From an uncultured Actinomycetes bacterium (GTDB lineage: Bacteria > Actinomycetota > Actinomycetes > Nanopelagicales > Nanopelagicaceae), in NCBI GenBank assembly GCA_903878415.1, contig CAIRHO010000021.1, positions 1 through 64,000 on the forward strand: 64,000 nt of DNA, given 5' to 3'. Of this stretch, positions 11,605 through 64,000 are shown in pieces (position 1 is the first letter of the stretch; every line of letters starts with the position of its first letter). A program made the translations under genes and the position numbers. The notes under the pieces are model-generated. The model saw only the letters and a list, made by a program, of their open reading frames with translations, had not been told where the DNA came from and made no database searches.

Positions 11605-14118
11605 ATGTTTGAGCGCTTTACCGACAGAGCTCGTCGCGTTGTTGTGCTCGCGCAAGAAGAAGCGCGGATGCTTAATCACAACTACATCGGTACCGAACAT
11701 ATTCTCCTTGGATTGATTCACGAAGGCGAAGGCGTAGCAGCTAAAGGTCTTGAGTCACTTGGTATTTCACTAGAAGCCGTTCGCTCACAAGTTGAAGAGA
11801 TCATCGGTCAAGGACAACAAGCTCCCTCTGGACATATTCCTTTTACACCACGCGCAAAGAAAGTATTAGAACTTTCACTTCGCGAAGCACTACAACTTGG
11901 ACACAACTACATCGGCACCGAACATATTCTGCTCGGTTTAATTCGCGAAGGCGAAGGCGTCGCCGCGCAAGTGCTTGTAAAACTTGGCGCAGATTTAAAT
12001 CGAGTTCGCCAACAAGTCATTCAATTACTTTCTGGTTACCAAGGTAAAGAAGCTGTATCAACTGGCGGCCCAGCAGAAGGCACGCCATCCACTTCCTTAG
12101 TACTTGATCAATTTGGTCGTAACTTGACGCAAGCTGCTCGCGAAGGAAAATTAGATCCAGTAATCGGCCGCGAAAAAGAAATTGAACGTGTAATGCAAGT
12201 TCTTTCACGACGAACTAAGAACAATCCGGTATTAATCGGTGAACCAGGCGTTGGTAAGACTGCGGTAGTTGAAGGTTTAGCGCAAGCAATCGTTAAAAAC
12301 GATATTCCAGAAACCTTAAAAGATAAACAGATTTATTCACTTGATTTAGGTGCGCTTGTAGCGGGCAGCCGTTATCGAGGCGATTTCGAAGAACGTTTGA
12401 AGAAGGTATTAAAGGAAATTCGTACCCGTGGTGACATCATTCTTTTCATCGATGAAATTCACACACTAGTTGGCGCTGGCGCCGCAGAAGGTGCGATTGA
12501 TGCTGCAAGTATTTTGAAGCCAATGTTGGCTCGCGGCGAACTCCAGACAATTGGCGCAACAACTCTTGATGAATACCGCAAACATTTAGAGAAGGATGCT
12601 GCGCTAGAGCGACGTTTCCAACCGATTCAAGTTGCCGAACCTTCACTTGCACACACCATTGAAATTCTTAAAGGACTCCGCGATCGTTACGAATCCCATC
12701 ACAAAGTTTCCATATCCGATGCAGCGTTAGTTTCGGCCGCAACGCTTGCAGATCGCTATGTTGCAGATCGATTCTTGCCGGATAAAGCTATCGATTTGAT
12801 TGATGAAGCTGGTTCCAGACTTCGAATTCGTCGAATGACTGCACCACCTGAGTTACGTGCATTCGATGACAAGATTGCTGAGGCTCGGAAAGAGAAAGAA
12901 TCCGCAATTGATGGTCAAGATTTTGAAAAAGCTGCTGCGCTCCGCGATAAAGAAAAGAATTTAATTTCCGAAAAAGCAGAGCGCGAAAAAGCTTGGAAAG
13001 CTGGCGACCTAGATGTTGTTGCTGTGGTTGATGAAGAGTTAATTGCGGAAGTTCTCTCAACTGCTACTGGAATTCCTGTATTTAAATTAACCGAAGCAGA
13101 AACCGCACGCTTACTGCGCATGGAAGATGAACTTCATCGCCGCGTTATTGGTCAAGACCAAGCAATCAAAGCGCTCTCACAAGCGATTCGGAGAACTCGC
13201 GCTGGACTTAAAGATCCAAAACGTCCGGGCGGATCTTTTATTTTTGCTGGGCCTTCTGGCGTTGGAAAGACCGAACTTTCGCGGACTCTTGCAGCATTCT
13301 TATTTGGCGATGCCGATGCATTAATCCAACTTGATATGTCGGAGTACTCCGAAAAGCACACTGCATCAAGGTTATTTGGCGCACCTCCAGGTTATGTTGG
13401 ATATGACGAAGGTGGTCAATTAACCGAGAAAGTTCGGCGCCGTCCATTCTCTGTTGTGTTATTTGATGAAATCGAAAAAGCACATCCAGATATTTTCAAC
13501 TCACTTTTACAAGTATTGGAAGATGGCCGCTTAACTGACGCCCAAGGTCGAGTTGTTGATTTCAAGAACACCGTAATCATCATGACTACAAACCTTGGAA
13601 CTCGCGATATCTCGAAGAGTCTGGCACTTGGCTTTACTAATGTCTCTGATGTGCTTGGTAACTATGAGCGGATGAAAGCAAAAGTTCAAGACGAACTCAA
13701 GACACACTTCCGTCCAGAGTTCTTAAACCGCATCGATGATGTAATTGTCTTCCATCAATTAAGCGAAAACGAAATTATCCAAATCGTTGATCTAATGATT
13801 GCTAACTTAGAAGATCGCTTGAAGGCGAAAGATATGGGTATTGAACTAACTTCAGCTGCGAAACTTTTGTTAGCTAAACGTGGGTATGACCCAGTTCTTG
13901 GCGCTCGACCACTCCGTCGGACGATTCAACGTGAAATTGAAGATGCGCTCTCCGAAAAGATTCTCTTTGGTGATATCAAAGCCGGTGAAATTATCTTGAT
14001 TGATGTTGCGCCAGCAAAAGAAGGCGAAATAGGCTCAGAAACTTTTACCTTTACCGGAATGCCAAGAGAGCAAATGCCAGATACTCCAGGCGATTTAGCG
14101 GAAGCACCAACCGCCTAA
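11605..14118 (+). CDS. clpC: ATP-dependent Clp protease ATP-binding subunit ClpC
   Basis: Hexameric Hsp100 unfoldase that feeds substrates to ClpP1P2; essential in many Actinobacteria. The 837-residue protein has two N-terminal Clp repeats (about 1-75 and 76-150), AAA-1 with Walker A G-E-P-G-V-G-K-T, a middle coiled domain carrying a UVR-like motif (the [12 protein letters not shown] stretch), AAA-2 with Walker A G-P-S-G-V-G-K-T and an L-G-F tripeptide in A-L-G-F-T-N that is the probable ClpP-docking loop. AGGAG precedes the ATG. It is the last gene of the block before the amino-sugar module. Confidence 0.97.
11677..11964 (+). repeat. Internal 63-nt repeat pair encoding the Clp N-domain helices
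   Basis: Two 63-nt copies at 11677-11739 and 11902-11964, exactly 225 nt (75 codons) apart, match at 55 of 63 positions by eye. Both encode the [14 protein letters not shown] motif plus the following E-G-E-G-V-A. Seven of the eight mismatches are silent third-base changes (one alters His to Arg). This is the ancient Clp-N duplication. Confidence 0.8.
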
Positions 14119-14199: not shown

Positions 14200-15123
14200 A
14201 TGACTAGCGAAAATAGTAATTCTGAATCGAAAATTGGTTCATTACGTACCGAGCAAGTCGATGCGAAGTACCACTTGCTTGATGCAATGTCGGTAACAGA
14301 ATTACTGCAAGCAATGAATGAAAGTGATGCTGAAGTTCCACGTGCCATTGCATTAAAGCTTCCGGAGATAGAAAAAGCAATTGATGGGATTGTCGACCGC
14401 TTATTACAAGGTGGCCGCTTAATTTACTTGGGCGCAGGAACATCTGGGCGACTTGGCGTTTTAGACGCAGCTGAATGTGGCCCGACATTCTCAGTTAGCG
14501 AAGATCAAGTTCTTGCTTTCATTGCTGGCGGAGATCAAGCTCTACGTTTTCCGGCAGAAGGTGTTGAAGATGATCCAACAGCTGGTGCAACAGATTTGAA
14601 ATTAAAAAACGTTTCCCAACTAGATGCGGTTGTCGGAATTGCAGCAAGCGGGCGTACCCCTTATGTGATTGGTGCGCTGCAATTAGCAAAAGAAGTTGGC
14701 GCATTAACTATTGGCTTAACTGGTAACCCAAACTCTGAAATCTCAAAAATTGTTGATCATCCAATTGAAATTGATTCCGGACCAGAGCTACTCGCAGGAT
14801 CTACTAGATTAAAATCTGGAACGGCTCAAAAATTAGTTCTAAACATGATTTCAACTATAGCGATGGTAAGACTTGGCAAGACTTATGGAAATCTCATGGT
14901 TGATCTCCAAGTTACAAACGAGAAGTTACAAGATCGCGCACTTCGAATAATTGAAAAAGCTACCGGAGCGGTTCGCGCGGAATCTACGAGAGCGCTAAAA
15001 GAAGCAAACCACGAAGTGAAAGTTGCAATCTTGATGCTCCTTTTAAATTTGGATGCAAAGGCTGCTCGAGAGCGATTGCTGGCATCTTCAAATCGGATCC
15101 GAGAAGCGCTCGGAACCGAATAA
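14200..15123 (+). CDS. murQ: N-acetylmuramic acid 6-phosphate etherase
   Basis: Removes the D-lactyl ether from MurNAc-6-phosphate, giving GlcNAc-6-phosphate and lactate, the defining step of MurNAc catabolism. The 307-residue protein has the SIS fold with the signature G-A-G-T-S-G-R-L-G (78-86), Glu92 in the D-A-A-E-C-G-P-T-F stretch corresponding to the catalytic acid/base, and the second conserved acidic segment E-G-V-E-D at about 120-124. The C-terminal helical part has the usual family length. It opens a same-strand module with an RpiR regulator, ABC uptake genes and a sugar kinase, which fixes the pathway as uptake or recycling of a cell-wall sugar. Confidence 0.95.
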   Translation: MTSENSNSESKIGSLRTEQVDAKYHLLDAMSVTELLQAMNESDAEVPRAIALKLPEIEKAIDGIVDRLLQGGRLIYLGAGTSGRLGVLDAAECGPTFSVSEDQVLAFIAGGDQALRFPAEGVEDDPTAGATDLKLKNVSQLDAVVGIAASGRTPYVIGALQLAKEVGALTIGLTGNPNSEISKIVDHPIEIDSGPELLAGSTRLKSGTAQKLVLNMISTIAMVRLGKTYGNLMVDLQVTNEKLQDRALRIIEKATGAVRAESTRALKEANHEVKVAILMLLLNLDAKAARERLLASSNRIREALGTE

Positions 15124-15149
15124 CTCCTTTAAAATTACTGGATTTAGGC

Positions 15150-15176
15150 TTGACCTAATAGCGTTAAGGCTATAAT
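15150..15176 (+). promoter_or_regulatory. Predicted promoter of regulator-binding protein transcript
   Basis: TTGACC (15150-15155) and a perfect TATAAT (15171-15176), spaced 15 nt, lie upstream of the RpiR-type regulator gene. The spacer is short of the optimum, but both boxes are the best matches in the window. The transcript would carry the regulator and the sugar-binding protein. Confidence 0.6.
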
Positions 15177-15184
15177 TTTCACCA

Positions 15185-15199
15185 AGCAAAGCTTTTGCT
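15185..15199. promoter_or_regulatory. Candidate operator downstream of the TATAAT box
   Basis: A perfect 6-bp dyad, AGCAAA-GCT-TTTGCT, begins 9 nt after the TATAAT box, so a bound repressor would block the start or early elongation. It is flanked by two direct copies of TTTTCACC (15176-15183 and 15209-15216), 33 nt apart. The encoded RpiR-type regulator just downstream is the obvious candidate ligand-responsive repressor, but binding is inferred. Confidence 0.4.
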
Positions 15200-15226
15200 G
15201 AATTTTATTTTCACCGGGGGTATCTG

Positions 15227-16195
15227 ATGGTCGCCACATCTACACCGCTCCGGGTGGTCGGGAAAAACTATCGTGACGTTTTAGGCGAAATTAAAAACTC
15301 ATTTTCATCTTTCCATGCGAGCGAAATTTCAATTGCAAATGCCGTAATTGAAAATTCTGATCAAGTTTCTGAGATGAACATCTCCCAACTTGCTGCATTT
15401 AGTAAAACATCAGTTGCATCTGTTGTCCGGTTTAGTAAAACTCTAGGCTTTAAGGGTTTTCCAGAATTTAGAATGGCGCTAGTTAGCGACCTAAGTCGAA
15501 TTCAACATTTAGGTATTGAAGAGTCAGAGTTAGATGGCGGCATCACCTCTACAGACACTTCGGCCGACATCATTCGAAAGATTGCTCACGCTGATTCGCG
15601 CGCAATTCAAACTACAACCGAACGATTAGATTTACAAGTCTTTGAAAAAACTCTTACGCTTTGGGAAAATGCAAAAACTATTGGGATAATCGGATTAGCT
15701 TCCAGCGGATTTGTAGCAATGGACTTACAACTTAAGTTAAATAGATTAGGAAAACATGCAGTTGCTTGGCGCGATGCACATTCAGCCCTAACTTCGCTAG
15801 CGCTATTAAAAGAAGGCGACGTTTTAGTCGCTATAAGTCACAGCGGGACAACTTTAGATGTAGTTGATGTCATGACCGAGTTTAAAAAACGAGGCATTAA
15901 TTTAGTTTTAATTACAAATGCACTTAGAAGTCCAGCTTGCGCGCTAACAGAATTTGTTTTACATACTTCCGCACGGGAAACCACCTTCCGAAGCGGTGCT
16001 ACTGCGAGTCGAATCGCACAATTAACGGTGGTTGACTGTCTCTGTGTTGCGTTAGCACAGAGAAACTGGAGTGGTACCAAGGCTGCTCTAGATCAATCTA
16101 GGGCGGCTGTGGGAATCCGTTCTGGAAAGAAGCTGAGTGATATCGAGGGATTTCATTCAACTTCTAAACCATCCCGCTCTCGAGGAGGAAAATAA
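15227..16195 (+). CDS. MurR/RpiR-family transcriptional regulator
   Basis: A 322-residue regulator with an RpiR-type helix-turn-helix in roughly residues 10-90 (the N-I-S-Q-L-A-A-F-S-K-T-S-V-A-S-V-V-R-F segment is the recognition region) and a SIS sugar-phosphate domain in about 130-270, with G-L-A-S-S-G-F and I-S-H-S-G-T-T loops. RpiR proteins sense phosphosugars, here most likely MurNAc-6-P or GlcNAc-6-P because murQ and a kinase flank it. A GGGGG ribosome site precedes the ATG. The stop abuts the GTG of the binding-protein gene with zero gap. The C-terminal 40 residues are basic and Ser-rich. Confidence 0.88.
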   Translation: MVATSTPLRVVGKNYRDVLGEIKNSFSSFHASEISIANAVIENSDQVSEMNISQLAAFSKTSVASVVRFSKTLGFKGFPEFRMALVSDLSRIQHLGIEESELDGGITSTDTSADIIRKIAHADSRAIQTTTERLDLQVFEKTLTLWENAKTIGIIGLASSGFVAMDLQLKLNRLGKHAVAWRDAHSALTSLALLKEGDVLVAISHSGTTLDVVDVMTEFKKRGINLVLITNALRSPACALTEFVLHTSARETTFRSGATASRIAQLTVVDCLCVALAQRNWSGTKAALDQSRAAVGIRSGKKLSDIEGFHSTSKPSRSRGGK

Positions 16196-17476
16196 GTGAT
16201 TAAAACTAAAAGCCGGTTACGCGGTTTAATGGCTGCAGTTTTCGCAACTGCTGCGATTGTCGTACCTATTACAGCTTCACCTGCGAATGCAGCAACAGAA
16301 ATTACCTTCTGGAGCTGGCGTCCAGAGGATAAAGTTTTCTACGAAGCAGAAGCTGCAAAATTTCTAGCAGCAACTGGTATCTCCGTAAAATTCACACCTT
16401 ATGTAGCAACTGATTACAACGCACTTCTTTCAACTGCGCTTACTGCAGGAAAAGGACCAGATGTAATGCAGATGCGTGCATACGGTGGCATGTCAAACCT
16501 TTCTGATGCTGGCTATTTCATGCCACTAACATCGAAAGATATTCCAGCACTTGCCAAGATTCCAGCAGGAACTCTTGCCGGAGCACAGGGATATACCAGC
16601 AAGCTTCAATATGGGTTGCCATATGCAACTTCAGTTCTTGGAGTTATGTATAACCCAGATCTACTAAAAAAGGCTGGTGTTAAAGCACTGCCAACTACTT
16701 GGTCATCATTTTTTGCTGCAATGGATAAAGTTAAAGCAGCCGGAATTTTGCCTTTGGGTAATGGCAGTGGATATGCACCTGGAATGGAACAACTCTGGGG
16801 TGCAGTAGGACCAACTTTCTACGGCGGTAATGATTTCTATAAGAATATTGTTGCTGGTAACAAAACTTTCACAGATAAGAATTTTGTAGCTTCACTTCAA
16901 GCTGTGAAAGATCTAGTTGCGTACTTCCCAACTGGCCATGCTGGTTTGGACTACAACACTGCTCGTGGACTTTTTGCTAACGAAAAAGCTGCGTTCTATA
17001 TCGGCGGAAACTATGAAATTTCATATTTCCGTTCGCTAAACCCATCACTTAACGTTGGTTGGATGCCTGCTCCTGCAGCAGCAGCTGGAACTCCACGTTA
17101 TGTAACTAACTGGGCTGACGGCGGCTTTGCAATTAATGCAAAGACCACTAACAAGGCAGCAGCAATTAAATTCATGAACTTCCTTTCAAGCAAGGCATTC
17201 ATGCAAGATGCTGCCGATTCACTTGGTTGGATCTCCACAATTTCAGGCGTAAAAGTCACCGATCCAGCTGTTGTCAGTATGGTTCGTGCGATTCCATCAT
17301 CTGGAACTCCATTCTTAACTCTTGTTGGTTTCCGCTACGGCGCACCAACATCTTCATCCATCATGCAACCTGGATTCCAGAAAGTTGCAGCTGGTACTCA
17401 AACCGCGGCTGAACTAGCTGCGGCTATCCAAGCTGGTGTTGCAACTTGGTATGTACCACTTAAAGGCAAAGCATAA
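16196..17476 (+). CDS. Extracellular sugar-binding protein of ABC transporter
   Basis: Family 1 solute-binding protein (426 residues) that would deliver an amino sugar or cell-wall saccharide to the permeases encoded next. A Sec signal peptide spans about 1-32 (basic start, hydrophobic core, A-N-A cleavage motif); the mature part begins with T-E-I-T-F-W-S-W, the usual first strand of MalE-like proteins. No lipobox cysteine is present, unusual for a monoderm binding protein. The GTG start directly follows the regulator stop, with GAGGAGG as ribosome site. A strong hairpin sits after the stop, which should give more binding protein than permease. The ligand is inferred from murQ and the kinase. 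Confidence 0.88.
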   Translation: MIKTKSRLRGLMAAVFATAAIVVPITASPANAATEITFWSWRPEDKVFYEAEAAKFLAATGISVKFTPYVATDYNALLSTALTAGKGPDVMQMRAYGGMSNLSDAGYFMPLTSKDIPALAKIPAGTLAGAQGYTSKLQYGLPYATSVLGVMYNPDLLKKAGVKALPTTWSSFFAAMDKVKAAGILPLGNGSGYAPGMEQLWGAVGPTFYGGNDFYKNIVAGNKTFTDKNFVASLQAVKDLVAYFPTGHAGLDYNTARGLFANEKAAFYIGGNYEISYFRSLNPSLNVGWMPAPAAAAGTPRYVTNWADGGFAINAKTTNKAAAIKFMNFLSSKAFMQDAADSLGWISTISGVKVTDPAVVSMVRAIPSSGTPFLTLVGFRYGAPTSSSIMQPGFQKVAAGTQTAAELAAAIQAGVATWYVPLKGKA

Positions 17477-17486
17477 ATAAGTAAAA

Positions 17487-17526
17487 ATAAGGCGCAGAGA
17501 GAAATCTCTGCGCCTTATCAATTTTT
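17487..17526 (+). terminator. Intra-operon intrinsic terminator/attenuator
   Basis: A perfect 14-bp stem (17487-17500 with 17505-17518) closed by a GAAA tetraloop is followed by a T-tract at 17522-17526. It lies between the binding-protein gene and the first permease gene. The opposite strand also has a T-rich stretch next to the stem, so it could act both ways. A partial terminator here would set binding-protein excess over permease and also stabilise the upstream mRNA. It is the only convincing intrinsic terminator I found in the window. Confidence 0.85.
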
Positions 17527-17549
17527 CGCAAGGCAAAAAGAGATGAGCA

Positions 17550-18470
17550 ATGGCTAAATCTGGATTAAAACGAGATCAACAAAGATTTACTTATTTGTTG
17601 CTGCTTCCAGCGCTATTAACCATAATAATTTTTACAAGCCTTCCAGCGCTTACCACGCTAAGTTATTCATTTTTCCATTGGACCGGTTTTCAACGTGGCG
17701 GTTTTGCCGGTACCGAAAATTTCAGAAGACTTTTTGCATTTCCATTCCGAGATTCACTATTTATGGCGATGCGACACAACGTCCTGGTTTTCATCGGAAT
17801 TTTAATTATTCAAACATCACTAGGGATTTTGATTGCTTATGCGCTTTATAGGTTGAAGCGAGGGCAGAGATTTTATAGGACCGTAATTTTCTTACCTGTT
17901 ATTTTCTCACTAGTAATTGTTGGATATATGTGGCAAGCAATGCTCGATCCATTTTATGGTCCGATAAATTACTTACTTCATAAAGTTGGCTGGGACTCAT
18001 TGGCTTTAACTTGGCTGGGGAGTACTGCAACAGCGTTACCAACTTTAGTATTCATTAATTTGTGGCGCTGGGTTGGGTTTCCCGCAATCATTTTTCTTGC
18101 CGGACTAAATGCAATCAATAGCGAATATTTAGAAGCGGCTAAAATTGATGGCGCAAGTGAAGGTCAAATATTTCGCAAGATAATGTTTCCATTATTAGCG
18201 CCATCAATGACGATTGTTACGGTTTTAACTTTCATTGGCGCATTTGAATGGTTCGATTTACCTTATGTTTTAGGGGGCTCTTCTGGAAGTCCCGCCGGCG
18301 CCACAGACACGCTTGCTCTAATGTTTTATCGCTTATCTTTTGGCTCCGTTGATTCGGGTGCAAATGAGATAGGTATAGGTGCCGCGCTCGGAGTTTTGAT
18401 TTTTACAGTAGTAGGTATCGGAGCTGGGTTTGGCTCTAAGTATTTAAGATCTCGCGAGGTGCAGATGTGA
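17550..18470 (+). CDS. ABC sugar transporter permease, MalF-like
   Basis: A 306-residue inner permease of the binding-protein-dependent carbohydrate type with six predicted membrane spans. The EAA loop that docks on the ATPase is visible in the last third as E-A-A-K-I-D-G-A-S-E-G-Q-I-F. The ATG at 17550 has an AAAGAGAT ribosome site. It follows the hairpin after the binding-protein gene and overlaps the second permease by 4 nt. No ATP-binding subunit is encoded beside it, so a shared MsiK-type ATPase elsewhere is likely. Confidence 0.92.
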   Translation: MAKSGLKRDQQRFTYLLLLPALLTIIIFTSLPALTTLSYSFFHWTGFQRGGFAGTENFRRLFAFPFRDSLFMAMRHNVLVFIGILIIQTSLGILIAYALYRLKRGQRFYRTVIFLPVIFSLVIVGYMWQAMLDPFYGPINYLLHKVGWDSLALTWLGSTATALPTLVFINLWRWVGFPAIIFLAGLNAINSEYLEAAKIDGASEGQIFRKIMFPLLAPSMTIVTVLTFIGAFEWFDLPYVLGGSSGSPAGATDTLALMFYRLSFGSVDSGANEIGIGAALGVLIFTVVGIGAGFGSKYLRSREVQM

Positions 18471-19294
18471 TTAAGTTATTTGCATCGAAGTTATTTTTTC
18501 GCTCTGTTTTAATTTTCAACACCGTAATCGTAATTTTGCCCCTTCTTTTTATAGTTAATTCTTCGTTACGTGAAACAAATGATTTCGCGCGATCACCTAT
18601 GAAGCTCGCTACGCACCCTTATTGGCAAAATTTTAAAGATGTCTGGGCTGGTGGCACCTTTCCTACCTATATGAAGAATTCATTAGTTGTAACAGGCGGA
18701 TCAATAATTTTGATTTTACTTTTATCACTTGGTGCTGGTTTCGTTTTGGGGCGATATAAATTTAGAGGCCATTCAATAATTCTTGGTTTCATACTTTCGG
18801 GGATGTTAGTTCCGGCTAAGTTAGCAATTTTGCCACTTTTCATTCAACTTAAATGGATGCATCTGCTCGATTCTCACATTGGATTAATCTTGGTTTATAC
18901 ATCTGGAGCACTACCCGCAGCAATATTTATTATGAGTGGGTTTTTTAGCGCACTACCTTCAGATTTGGATAACGCAGCTCGCATAGATGGTGCATCAGAA
19001 TTTCAATTACTAAGAATTGTTTTAACACCGTTAGTAAGACCCGGTTTGGCAATTGTTGCAATCTATTCTGCGATTCCAATTTGGAATGACTTCTTCTTGC
19101 CGCTAGTTTTCTTGCAGTCTCCAGAGAAGAAAACCATCATGCAGGGTTTAACTGCTTTCTTTGGCGAGTATTCATCGCAGTGGGGCATCATTTTTGCCGG
19201 CTTAATGATTGCCGCGCTTCCGCTAATTACGCTCTATTTGATCATTTCAGAGCAGTTCATTAAGGGTTTAACCGCAGGCGCTGTGAAAGGCTAA
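18467..19294 (+). CDS. ABC sugar transporter permease, MalG-like
   Basis: Second permease of the pair, 275 residues, six predicted spans. The EAA loop reads D-N-A-A-R-I-D-G-A-S-E-F-Q-L-L, matching the MalG branch. The start GTG overlaps the stop of the first permease by 4 nt (GTGA). The kinase gene starts 4 nt after its stop, so uptake and phosphorylation are co-expressed. Confidence 0.92.
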   Translation: MIKLFASKLFFRSVLIFNTVIVILPLLFIVNSSLRETNDFARSPMKLATHPYWQNFKDVWAGGTFPTYMKNSLVVTGGSIILILLLSLGAGFVLGRYKFRGHSIILGFILSGMLVPAKLAILPLFIQLKWMHLLDSHIGLILVYTSGALPAAIFIMSGFFSALPSDLDNAARIDGASEFQLLRIVLTPLVRPGLAIVAIYSAIPIWNDFFLPLVFLQSPEKKTIMQGLTAFFGEYSSQWGIIFAGLMIAALPLITLYLIISEQFIKGLTAGAVKG

Positions 19295-19298
19295 CGCC

Positions 19299-20186
19299 AT
19301 GTTAACTTTAGGAATTGATGGCGGGGCGACTGCAGCTAAATGGGCGCTACGAGATGACTCCGGAAAGATTAAAGAAGGAGTTTCAGAACCAATTGATGGC
19401 CACACTTATCGGCCGGAATCTAAAGCCAGATTAGTTAAAGTTCTAAATGAAATTAAGGCAGCAGCGGGTAATGAAAAAATTTCCGCTATTTATGCGGGGA
19501 TAACTGGGACAAGTTCAGATCCTGAAAATAATGGCGAAATCATTGAGATATTTCAATCTATATTTGGTGAAATTGAAATAGAAATTGTCATAGATATGGT
19601 CCTTGGTTATCGGGCTCATTTTGATTTCGGTGAAGGAATATTTTTATATGCAGGTACCGGATCAATTGCAACTTATTTGACAGAGACTGGAAAAGTTGTA
19701 AGAGCCGGTGGCTGGGGTTATTTATTAGGAGATGAAGGCGCTGGATATTGGATTGGTCGCGAGGCAATTCGCCGAACTTTAACTGCAATCGATACTAAAA
19801 GTGCAATTACAAAAGGTTCGCTAGAAGCCGAAGTTTTAGATTTTACAAAGTGCAAAGATTGGAACGGCATAAAAGAGTTTGTTTATTCAAAAGATAGATC
19901 TGCCATAGCAGCTTTAGCAAAGCCAGTAATTTCACTTGCGAAAAAGGGTGAACTAGCCGCACAGGACATTCTTGCGATAGCAGCAGATTATTTAATTGAT
20001 TTAGTACTACAAATAGAATCTGTTGTCGCAAAACCAGATCTTCCTGTAATTTTTGCGGGCGGAATCACAGAGGCTGGCGATTTCATAATTGACCTTATAA
20101 ATATTGGAATCGGCCGCGAAGTTTCATTATCTAAAGTTCGAATTGCTAATCGTGCTGCTGAAATTGCTGCAGAAAATTTGGCTTAA
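19299..20186 (+). CDS. BadF/BcrA-family amino-sugar kinase (GlcNAc/MurNAc kinase-like)
   Basis: ASKHA-fold kinase of 295 residues. The phosphate-1 loop is G-I-D-G-G-A-T-A-A-K (5-14), the phosphate-2 region Y-A-G-T-G-S, and G-W-G-Y-L-L-G-D-E-G-A-G-Y-W-I-G is the signature of N-acetylglucosamine kinases of this family; the adenosine loop is A-G-G-I-T-E. MurK of Clostridium belongs to this family and phosphorylates both MurNAc and GlcNAc. Beside murQ and ABC permeases, the natural role is making MurNAc-6-P (and perhaps GlcNAc-6-P) from sugar imported unphosphorylated. AnhydroMurNAc kinase is a different family and is not seen here. Its stop is 8 nt from the convergent radA stop. Confidence 0.82.
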   Translation: MLTLGIDGGATAAKWALRDDSGKIKEGVSEPIDGHTYRPESKARLVKVLNEIKAAAGNEKISAIYAGITGTSSDPENNGEIIEIFQSIFGEIEIEIVIDMVLGYRAHFDFGEGIFLYAGTGSIATYLTETGKVVRAGGWGYLLGDEGAGYWIGREAIRRTLTAIDTKSAITKGSLEAEVLDFTKCKDWNGIKEFVYSKDRSAIAALAKPVISLAKKGELAAQDILAIAADYLIDLVLQIESVVAKPDLPVIFAGGITEAGDFIIDLINIGIGREVSLSKVRIANRAAEIAAENLA

Positions 20187-20194
20187 TTAAAGTT

Positions 20195-21568
20195 TTAAAT
20201 TTTAACTCTGGAAATTGCCTGCTCTAATCGGGCAACTTCTAAGATCTCCATTCCATCGAGTTTCGCCTCAGACCCAAGCGGAACTAGTGCGCGTTTAAAG
20301 CCAAGCCGAAGCGCTTCTTGTAAGCGACGTTGCACGCCACTAACTTTCCGGATTTCGCCGGCTAATCCAACTTCACCAATCGCAATTAAATCAGCGGGAA
20401 GCGCTAAACCTTTTGCGGCAGAGGCAACAGCAAGAGCTAACGCTAAATCGGCAGCGGGTTCGGTCATTTTCATTCCGCCAACTGTTGCGGCATAAACATC
20501 ACGGCCAGTTAAGCGAATTCCGGCGCGAAGTTCTAATACTGCAAGCGTCATTGCAGTTCTGGAATTATCCAAACCGCTATTTACTCGCCGAGCATTTCCG
20601 TAATCAACATCTTTTGCAGCGCTAACAAGCGCTTGAATTTCAGCAAGTAATGGCCGGCGACCTTCGAGAGTGACCGTTACACATGTTCCAGGAACTGGGT
20701 CGATGTGTCGAGTTGTGAATAATCCGGTTGGATCGGGAAGTCCTTCGATTCCGCCATCATGTAAATCGAAACAACCAACTTCATCACTCGCACCGTAACG
20801 ATTTTTAATTGCGCGGATTAATCGTAATCTGGAATGGCGCTCACCTTCAAATTGTAAAACTACATCTACTACATGTTCTAATAATCTAGGTCCAGCGATA
20901 GAACCATCCTTAGTTACATGTCCCACCAATACTAAAGTTATTGCGCGATCTTTACATAACCGAATTAACGCAGCCGCAACTTCGCGCACTTGAGTTACAC
21001 CGCCAGGAGCGGAGTCAACTGCAGCGCTACCAATTGTTTGGATGCTGTCGATAATTAATAAAGCTGGTTGCACCTCATCAATATGTGAAATTACCGAACC
21101 AAGTTCGGTTTCAGATGCCAACCAAAGTTCTTTATCAAGGGCTCCCAAACGTTCGGCACGGAGCCGTACTTGCGAAGTTGATTCCTCGCCACTGATATAT
21201 AAAGTTGTTAATCCAAGGCGTGCACTTTCAGCTGCGACAGTTAATAACAAAGTTGATTTTCCAACTCCAGGTTCACCAGCTAATAAAATTGCGGCACCCG
21301 GAACTAAACCACCACCGAGCACTCGATCTAACTCTGGAACTCCGCTTGTACGAGCTCGGGCACTTTCTATTGCGACATCGCCAATTGGTAACGCCGCATT
21401 AGTAACTGCAGTTGCAATTAATGAAAGCTTTTTCGGGGCTGATATTTCTTCAACTGTTCCCCAAGCTTGACATTCACCACAGCGTCCAGCCCATTTTGTT
21501 GAAGTCCAACCGCATTCTGCGCAGCGGAACGGGTCTTTTGCAGGTTTTGGTGCCGAGCTCTTTGCCAT
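20195..21568 (-). CDS. radA: DNA repair protein RadA
   Basis: RecA-like helicase that processes recombination intermediates. The 457-residue protein has an N-terminal zinc finger with Cys16, Cys19, Cys30 and Cys33, a RecA core with Walker A G-E-P-G-V-G-K-S-T (98-106), the RadA motif K-N-R-Y-G (Tyr in place of the usual Phe) and a C-terminal Lon-protease-like domain containing the D-V-Y-A-A-T-V-G-G-M segment. The ATG has no Shine-Dalgarno but a TAGGCT box 6 nt upstream. In mycobacteria radA lies near clpC; here the amino-sugar module separates them. Confidence 0.97.
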   Translation of the reverse strand: MAKSSAPKPAKDPFRCAECGWTSTKWAGRCGECQAWGTVEEISAPKKLSLIATAVTNAALPIGDVAIESARARTSGVPELDRVLGGGLVPGAAILLAGEPGVGKSTLLLTVAAESARLGLTTLYISGEESTSQVRLRAERLGALDKELWLASETELGSVISHIDEVQPALLIIDSIQTIGSAAVDSAPGGVTQVREVAAALIRLCKDRAITLVLVGHVTKDGSIAGPRLLEHVVDVVLQFEGERHSRLRLIRAIKNRYGASDEVGCFDLHDGGIEGLPDPTGLFTTRHIDPVPGTCVTVTLEGRRPLLAEIQALVSAAKDVDYGNARRVNSGLDNSRTAMTLAVLELRAGIRLTGRDVYAATVGGMKMTEPAADLALALAVASAAKGLALPADLIAIGEVGLAGEIRKVSGVQRRLQEALRLGFKRALVPLGSEAKLDGMEILEVARLEQAISRVKI

Positions 21569-62664: not shown

Positions 62665-64000
62665 GTGAACGAGAAATTTGACGTTGTAATTATCGGTGGC
62701 GGTCATAATGGACTCGTTGCAGCCTGCTACTTAGCCCTATCTAATAAGAAAACCTTGATTCTAGAAGCTAAGTCTGAACTTGGTGGCGCATCAACCAGCG
62801 TCCGAGCATTTCCAGACTTTGATGCAAATCTTTCGAGGTACTCATACTTAGTATCTTTATTACCAGACCAAATCCTTAGAGATTTATCTATAGATTTTGA
62901 AACTATAAGCCGAAAAGTTTCTTCGTTCACACCAACAACTAGAAATGATCGAAACATTGGATTGCTGGTAAATAGGCAATTAGATGACGAAAGCAAAGAT
63001 TCATTCATTGCTTTAACTGGCAGCGATCTTGAATATAAAAAATGGGATGCTTTTTATAATGATCTCTTTAAGTTAGCTCAAGTAATGGCACCTACGATGC
63101 TTTCACCGTTACTAACCCGATTTGAGATGAAGCAATTAGCTATCGATAACGGACTTTCTCAAGTTTGGGATGACTTTATTGAGCGTCCACTTGGTGAGGT
63201 GATTCGCCGTGAATTTAGTGAAGACTTAGTAAGAGGCGTGGTCTTGACCGATGCCCTTATTGGAACATTTACCCCAGCCGATAATTTGATGGCTAACATC
63301 TGTTTTCTTTATCATTTGATCGGCAATGGCACCGGAGAATGGAAAGTACCGCGCGGTGGCATGGGAGCTCTAGTTAAGAAATTAACTGCAAGAGCGCGGG
63401 AATTAGGCGTTGAAATCCGTACTGATTCTAAAGTAACAAAAATTGGTGATGAAGGTTCGTTCAAAACAGTTGAAGTAAATAAGAACGAAATAATTGCAAC
63501 CGAATTTATTGCAGCTAATTGTGCACCTCAAATTTTGGCAGAAATACTTGGTGCCACCCCGCCGAAATACACAAAAGGTTCACAATTAAAAATAAATATG
63601 TTGCTAAAGAAGTTGCCAAGGCTTAAAAGTGGCACGGATCCAAAGGCAGCATTTGCTGGGACTTTTCACATCGATGAGAGCTACGCTCAACTTGAAAAAG
63701 CTTTTCAAGAAGCTGAATCCGGAAAAATTCCAAATATTATTCCGGCAGAAATGTATTGCCATACTCTTACTGATAACAGCATTCTTAGCGATGACTTGAA
63801 TAAAGCGGGCTATCAAACCCTTACTTTATTCGCGATTCATACACCAGCATCTTTATTTGACCACGATAACGAAGGCGTAAAAGCAAAAATGCTTAGTCAA
63901 ATTTTGCATCAGCTAAATCAATATCTACTTGATCCAATTGAAGAATGCTTAGCGGTGAGCGCTAACGGAACGTTATGTATCGAAGTAAAATCACCACAAG
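62665..64000 (+). CDS. FAD-dependent oxidoreductase, phytoene-dehydrogenase/PYROXD2-like (3' end outside window)
   Basis: The frame runs from GTG 62665 open to the window edge, giving at least 445 residues. The N-terminus F-D-V-V-I-I-G-G-G-H-N-G-L-V-A-A is the Rossmann FAD motif of the NAD(P)/FAD-dependent amine oxidase and phytoene-dehydrogenase superfamily, with E-A-K-S-E-L-G-G-A near 39-47. The W-K-V-P-R-G-G-M-G-A-L-V block in the middle is characteristic of the PYROXD2-like branch. Substrate is unknown; carotenoid or retinal precursors, amines and lipids are possible. No carotenoid genes neighbour it here. It was checked codon by codon and has no stop. Confidence 0.86.
   Translation, partial: MNEKFDVVIIGGGHNGLVAACYLALSNKKTLILEAKSELGGASTSVRAFPDFDANLSRYSYLVSLLPDQILRDLSIDFETISRKVSSFTPTTRNDRNIGLLVNRQLDDESKDSFIALTGSDLEYKKWDAFYNDLFKLAQVMAPTMLSPLLTRFEMKQLAIDNGLSQVWDDFIERPLGEVIRREFSEDLVRGVVLTDALIGTFTPADNLMANICFLYHLIGNGTGEWKVPRGGMGALVKKLTARARELGVEIRTDSKVTKIGDEGSFKTVEVNKNEIIATEFIAANCAPQILAEILGATPPKYTKGSQLKINMLLKKLPRLKSGTDPKAAFAGTFHIDESYAQLEKAFQEAESGKIPNIIPAEMYCHTLTDNSILSDDLNKAGYQTLTLFAIHTPASLFDHDNEGVKAKMLSQILHQLNQYLLDPIEECLAVSANGTLCIEVKSPQ

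Follow-up and report, generated by a model that had tools for sequence, protein, structure and literature searches.

How the MurNAc-6-phosphate (MurNAc, N-acetylmuramic acid) etherase MurQ obtains its substrate when no phosphotransferase system (PTS) gene lies beside murQ is the question raised by the locus described here. Anhydro-muropeptides are taken up by AmpG, and one described route for MurNAc itself is the PTS transporter MurP. The window, that is, the whole 64,000-nucleotide stretch analysed (contig CAIRHO010000021.1, assembly GCA_903878415.1), comes from an uncultured bacterium whose genome (G000; 1.36 Mb, 71 contigs, 90% complete) is of the acI/Nanopelagicaceae type. Its open reading frames (ORFs) include a plus-strand cluster of six genes encoding, in order, MurQ, an RpiR-type regulator, an extracellular sugar-binding protein (SBP), two permeases and a sugar kinase (Table 1). 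No PTS gene was found within this cluster, and the arrangement of the PTS MurP system, with EIIBC beside murQ, is not present there. We propose, with a probability of roughly two in three, that the cluster is a module for scavenging peptidoglycan sugars, in which MurNAc is imported by an ATP-binding cassette (ABC) transporter, phosphorylated by the MurK-like kinase and cleaved by MurQ. The proposal draws on the gene families and their order, on co-occurrence among genomes and on the presence of ATPase and nagBA genes elsewhere; the substrate, the kinase specificity, the partnership with the ATPase and the regulation are predicted from these.

Identity of the encoded proteins

The first gene product scored 365.8 bits against TIGR00274 (curated cut-off 302; residues 16-304) and aligned end to end with Haemophilus influenzae MurQ (4lzj, E=8e-84). 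Its glutamates E92 (DAAEC) and E120 (PAEG), which we take to be catalytic, lie in motifs aligned with 1nri/4lzj. The SBP matched SBP_bac_1 (E=2e-36) and, together with the two BPD_transp_1 permeases, has the composition of a CUT1 ABC importer. In an alignment of 43 SBP sequences, 40 positions were invariant. A signal peptide without a lipobox was seen in every acI-type homologue checked (window 16196-16300 and homologues), an unusual trait in a bacterium that lacks an outer membrane.

The kinase belongs to BcrAD_BadFG (PF01869, E=2e-24), and its best solved sequence match was the MurNAc/N-acetylglucosamine (GlcNAc) kinase MurK of Clostridium acetobutylicum (8zo3, E=2e-23). The structural model (predicted local distance difference test, pLDDT, 91.8) matched the folds of this MurK, hexokinase, human NagK and Tannerella forsythia MurK, and the catalytic D99 is invariant in 22 sequences. 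Residues proposed as markers of MurNAc specificity, at positions that would leave space for the lactyl group, were discarded as having no discriminating power within this subfamily. Going by the offset in the sequence match, I98 and G137-G138-W139 correspond to T94 and S133-L135 of T. forsythia MurK, and none of them is a bulky Glu/His; GGWG is, however, also present in GlcNAc kinases with this fold.

Co-occurrence of murQ and the transporter within the family

Among 201 genomes of the family, murQ was found in 31, the kinase (strong matches) in 24, the SBP in 21 and AnmK in 20. The SBP was accompanied by murQ in 20 of its 21 genomes (Fisher p=9e-19, on raw counts that ignore shared ancestry), and in the remaining one (G087) it lies at a contig end. 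Each of the 20 genomes with AnmK also has murQ, and no murQ genome lacks both AnmK and the SBP.

AnmK supplies MurNAc-6-P from anhydro-MurNAc, and no match to AnmK (PF03702) was found in the 90% complete source genome. Where murQ occurs without AnmK, the SBP was present in 11/11 genomes and the kinase in 10/11, the exception being 73% complete. Because MurQ requires MurNAc-6-P and AnmK is absent, the kinase of the module is a candidate source of this phosphate in such genomes. The first-pass annotation had named conservation of murQ without the transporter in close relatives as an observation that would tell against its MurNAc assignment; within the genus this was not found, and family-wide murQ without the transporter always comes with AnmK.

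Homologous transporters in other phyla

Species genomes were scanned with the SBP alignment, which recovered homologues sharing about 40% identity. Three Bacillota loci (L080, L081, L082) have murQ immediately upstream of an SBP-permease-permease set followed by NamZ (exo-N-acetylmuramidase). One Bacillota locus also has an RpiR regulator, and in L123 NamZ is present with no murQ nearby. In the loci of Rhodobacterales-type Alphaproteobacteria, murQ and rpiR-SBP-ATPase-permease-permease are transcribed divergently, so that this version has its own ATPase, and the Maritalea locus also has a D-lactate dehydrogenase that scored over its cut-off. The SBP tree separates the sequences from acI, Bacillota, the Rhodobacterales-type set and Microvirga into supported groups, with Microvirga sister to the Rhodobacterales-type group. 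From these groups and their murQ or NanE neighbourhoods, we take murQ linkage as the common state and the NanE linkage of Microvirga as the exception. The MurNAc assignment of the first-pass annotation is thus supported by co-occurrence with murQ, by murQ adjacency in two other phyla and by the Opp, AnmK and epimerase genes that share the locus in relatives (see below).

The Bacillota loci bring in a second form of import, in which MurNAc-GlcNAc (or GlcNAc-MurNAc) would enter and be split in the cytoplasm before the kinase and MurQ act. The homologous operon there ends with NamZ, whose reading frames have no evident signal peptide in four loci, and therefore NamZ probably acts inside the cell on imported disaccharide in Bacillota. 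The AlphaFold model of the window SBP (pLDDT 90.7) is also nearest in fold to chitin-oligosaccharide-binding proteins, as well as to raffinose-binding proteins. However, neither the acI cluster and its longer forms in relatives nor the alphaproteobacterial clusters showed a glycosidase, NamZ and NagZ not having been searched genome-wide. We regard import of the disaccharide as unlikely here, and as the main alternative to free MurNAc; a broader range of amino sugars may also be imported.

Specificity of the transporter and the kinase

Several observations weigh against MurNAc as the substrate. The SBP leaves its ligand unfixed by fold and sequence, and its nearest solved proteins bind oligosaccharides. 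The co-occurrence counts may be affected by the shared ancestry mentioned above. The kinase was found without detected murQ in four genomes, in one of them (L186) beside a NagB-II gene, which fits a GlcNAc kinase, and C. acetobutylicum MurK is described as using GlcNAc slightly better than MurNAc (PMC5790795). In Microvirga (L084-L132), SBP-permease-permease lies beside NanE with no murQ seen nearby, which suggests an N-acetylmannosamine-type substrate in this clade; for this reason the Microvirga homologues were dropped as further support.

These observations would in part suit a general importer of GlcNAc and other amino sugars working with a GlcNAc kinase, with the neighbouring murQ serving only the recycling of the cell's own wall. 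The L186 kinase and the NanE linkage agree with such an importer, as does NagK, the sole NCBIfam match of the kinase, which stays below cut-off; in addition, GlcNAc uptake by acI is reported with no transporter identified (PMC5574706). Nevertheless, murQ tracks the transporter across three phyla and through genomic relocation, and in the AnmK-less genomes, all 11 with the SBP, MurQ would be left without MurNAc-6-P if the kinase did not produce it. We therefore consider a GlcNAc importer improbable. That the transporter carries an unrelated sugar and lies beside murQ by accident is very improbable: CUT1 SBPs are hard to assign by sequence and the ligand is unreadable from the model, but the co-occurrence and the cross-phylum linkage to murQ, AnmK and NamZ argue against it.

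ATPase and downstream pathway

Family scans (Pfam and NCBIfam) of the window ORFs revealed no ATPase gene within the six-gene cluster, in agreement with the first-pass annotation, which had suggested a shared MsiK-like ATPase. A candidate for this was found. Of the three TOBE_2 ATPases encoded by the genome, two belong to operons that include their own permeases; the third is an orphan (363 aa; G000:C67:80464-81552), which scored 460 bits against the UgpC/MsiK-type subfamily (cut-off 432). The orphan was found in 25/25 family genomes tested, with or without the module. Several other sugar permease pairs of the genome also lie without an ATPase, and three TOBE_2 ATPases face many more permeases. 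Because the orphan is universal in the tested genomes and several permease pairs have no ATPase, the data fit a shared subunit that would also energise this transporter. An operon without ATPase combined with an orphan MsiK/UgpC-type ATPase elsewhere is the pattern of an MsiK-dependent transporter.

The same contig carries nagA (240 bits, cut-off 226; C67:35-37 kb) and, adjacent to it, a gene for a NagB-II-like SIS protein (207 bits, below the strict cut-off). The two lie inside a ribosomal-protein cluster, between map and rpsM-type genes (L181:8999-11115; G000:C67:35.0-37.1 kb). The pathway can thus be completed by genes elsewhere in the genome. The earlier description of a self-contained module holds for the grouping of the six genes and fails for self-containment, since the ATPase and nagA/nagB lie outside it.

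According to the proposed pathway, the secreted SBP would capture MurNAc, most likely as the free monosaccharide, and the two permeases would import it, powered by the orphan ATPase. The BadF-type kinase would then convert MurNAc to MurNAc-6-P, and probably also GlcNAc to GlcNAc-6-P. MurQ would cleave MurNAc-6-P to GlcNAc-6-P and D-lactate, and NagA and the NagB-II-type deaminase would convert GlcNAc-6-P to fructose-6-P.

Layout of the locus and its versions in relatives

The cluster lies between clpC (11605-14118) and the convergent radA (20195-21568); its six genes, their coordinates and strand and this site are as first annotated. The gaps are 103 bp (murQ/rpiR), 0 (rpiR/SBP), 73 bp (SBP/permease 1), -4 bp (permease 1/permease 2) and 4 bp (permease 2/kinase). 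The gene order upstream is a nadC-type gene, coaX, lysS, a GNAT gene and clpC, and downstream radA, a 268-aa gene and proC.

Table 1. Features of the murQ-kinase cluster (positions in the window)
Feature	Position	Strand	Basis
murQ, MurNAc-6-phosphate etherase, 307 aa	14200-15123	+	TIGR00274, H. influenzae MurQ 4lzj
Probable promoter of the rpiR-SBP-permease-kinase unit, TTGACC-15 nt-TATAAT	15150-15176	+	Recurs in related loci; predicted
Candidate operator TGAAT-N5-TTTCA, between -10 box and rpiR start	15199-15213	+	Position in related loci; predicted
RpiR/MurR-type regulator, 322 aa	15227-16195	+	HTH_6 + SIS
CUT1-type extracellular sugar-binding protein (SBP), 426 aa, GTG start, signal peptide without lipobox	16196-17476	+	SBP_bac_1
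Strong intercistronic hairpin, SBP/permease 1 gap	17487-17518	+	14-bp stem
ABC permease 1 (UgpA/MalF-like), 306 aa	17550-18470	+	BPD_transp_1
ABC permease 2 (UgpE/MalG-like), 275 aa	18467-19294	+	BPD_transp_1
BadF/NagK-type sugar kinase, MurK-like, 295 aa	19299-20186	+	BcrAD_BadFG, MurK 8zo3 match

The search of related genomes suggested by the first-pass annotation recovered the cluster both at the clpC-radA site and elsewhere. Two genomes of the same genus, G002 and G004, have all six genes at the clpC-radA site with 90-99% identity; G001 has them there too, with permease 2 and the kinase interrupted. G020 and G031, of another genus, keep the gene set and its order at a different location, beside TctABC and major facilitator superfamily transporter genes. 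Because the six genes recur in order in all five genomes, their grouping is not by chance. The interruption in G001 (L034:5734-7435), where the kinase match reads through 2 TGA codons, may reflect decay or assembly error; this genome also carries AnmK.

Some relatives have a longer locus. In L128, the order is murQ-oppA-oppB-oppC-oppD-oppF-anmK-serine hydrolase-rpiR-SBP-permeases-kinase-radA, and L057 and L077 match it from oppA onward with an additional epimerase gene. By Pfam, these loci encode SBP_bac_5, AnmK, an oligo_HPY ATPase, a hydrolase of beta-lactamase fold and a member of the enolase superfamily, which among solved structures is matched best by L-Ala-D/L-Glu epimerase (E=3e-51). 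The window version is most simply explained as this longer clpC-radA locus after loss of the middle part, although the relatives may instead have gained it.

A GlcD-like flavin adenine dinucleotide (FAD) oxidase gene adjoins the kinase in several relatives (L040:16501-17856, L183:4085-5440, L185:5441-6787 and others), and its product might oxidise the D-lactate released by MurQ. It was not counted as evidence, its best solved match being glycolate oxidase, and no copy turned up in the window or in the searched stretches of the source genome. In G007, a PIN-domain gene and two small ORFs, possibly a toxin-antitoxin pair, lie between clpC and murQ (L037:8347-9635).

Regulatory signals

The regulator is a member of the RpiR family (HTH_6 E=5e-17, SIS E=8e-23) and does not reach the MurR equivalog NF012026 (127 bits versus a cut-off of 408). 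Both promoter-like boxes and a palindrome lie within the 103-bp gap before rpiR. Most related loci have boxes like TTGACC-15-TATAAT in the corresponding position before rpiR; the pair was missed by the consensus scan because its spacer is 15 nt. The palindrome TGAAW-N5-TTTCA is at the same position in several related loci. By itself it is not enriched in the window or the genome (genome count 14 versus 9 for the control), and hence its putative role as RpiR operator draws its weight from the conserved position. Another match to the operator pattern, on both strands, is the palindrome TGAAAAAGCTTTTCA at window 63693-63707. In the comparison of related loci, the region upstream of murQ showed no palindrome of this kind, and murQ probably has its own promoter. 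The RpiR protein may repress its own unit (rpiR-SBP-permeases-kinase) until a sugar phosphate accumulates.

The SBP/permease 1 gap folds strongly (z-score -5.6) into a hairpin with a 14-bp stem, and in most related loci this gap also contains a strong hairpin, of different sequence. The likely role of the hairpin is to hold the SBP transcript at a higher level than the permease transcript.

Discussion

The predicted route combines features of several known systems. In T. forsythia, MurNAc uptake is independent of the PTS and uses a secondary transporter, MurT, alongside MurK and MurQ (PMC5790795, PMC10465942). The window cluster resembles it in its predicted PTS-independent uptake and in holding an ATP-dependent MurNAc 6-kinase fold and MurQ in one gene cluster. 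In contrast to the single secondary transporter MurT, however, its transporter is of the binding-protein ABC type, and the kinase shares only about 16-18% identity with T. forsythia MurK in the structural match. The kinase closest by sequence among solved ones, C. acetobutylicum MurK, acts on both MurNAc and GlcNAc and is 26% identical. With the MurP-MurQ-MurR systems of Escherichia coli and Bacillus subtilis, the cluster has MurQ and an RpiR/MurR-type regulator in common; unlike them, it contains no PTS gene, and uptake and phosphorylation would be separate steps. Like actinobacterial MsiK-dependent CUT1 transporters, it pairs an SBP and two permeases without their own ATPase with an orphan UgpC/MsiK-type ATPase, but differs from the known ones in its linkage to murQ and a MurK-like kinase and in its predicted cell-wall-sugar substrate. 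Opp-AnmK muropeptide recycling loci occupy the same clpC-radA site with the same murQ in relatives and are missing from the window.

What appears to be new is the combination of known enzymes with a known transporter class, for which we found no description in the literature searched. No CUT1 ABC transporter for MurNAc was described there, but subscription papers were mostly outside the search, so that this negative is weak evidence of novelty. A 2026 preprint leaves the mycobacterial MurNAc transporter unknown (PMC13041923). For acI, a genome-based reconstruction did not recover the reported GlcNAc uptake (PMC5574706), and a study cited there linked freshwater bacteria that resist grazing to carbon derived from cell walls.

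With its defined SBP, a MurNAc-type ABC transporter would offer a single gene for testing. Because 21/201 family genomes carry the module, it would account for only part of the lineage. Actinobacteria of the acI type rank among the most abundant bacteria of fresh waters. On balance, we lean towards the view that the window cluster represents the acI branch of an unrecognised CUT1 ABC family specific for MurNAc or MurNAc-GlcNAc that has members in Actinomycetota, Bacillota and Alphaproteobacteria and supplies MurQ in them, which would give these abundant bacteria one route to eat the walls of their dead neighbours.

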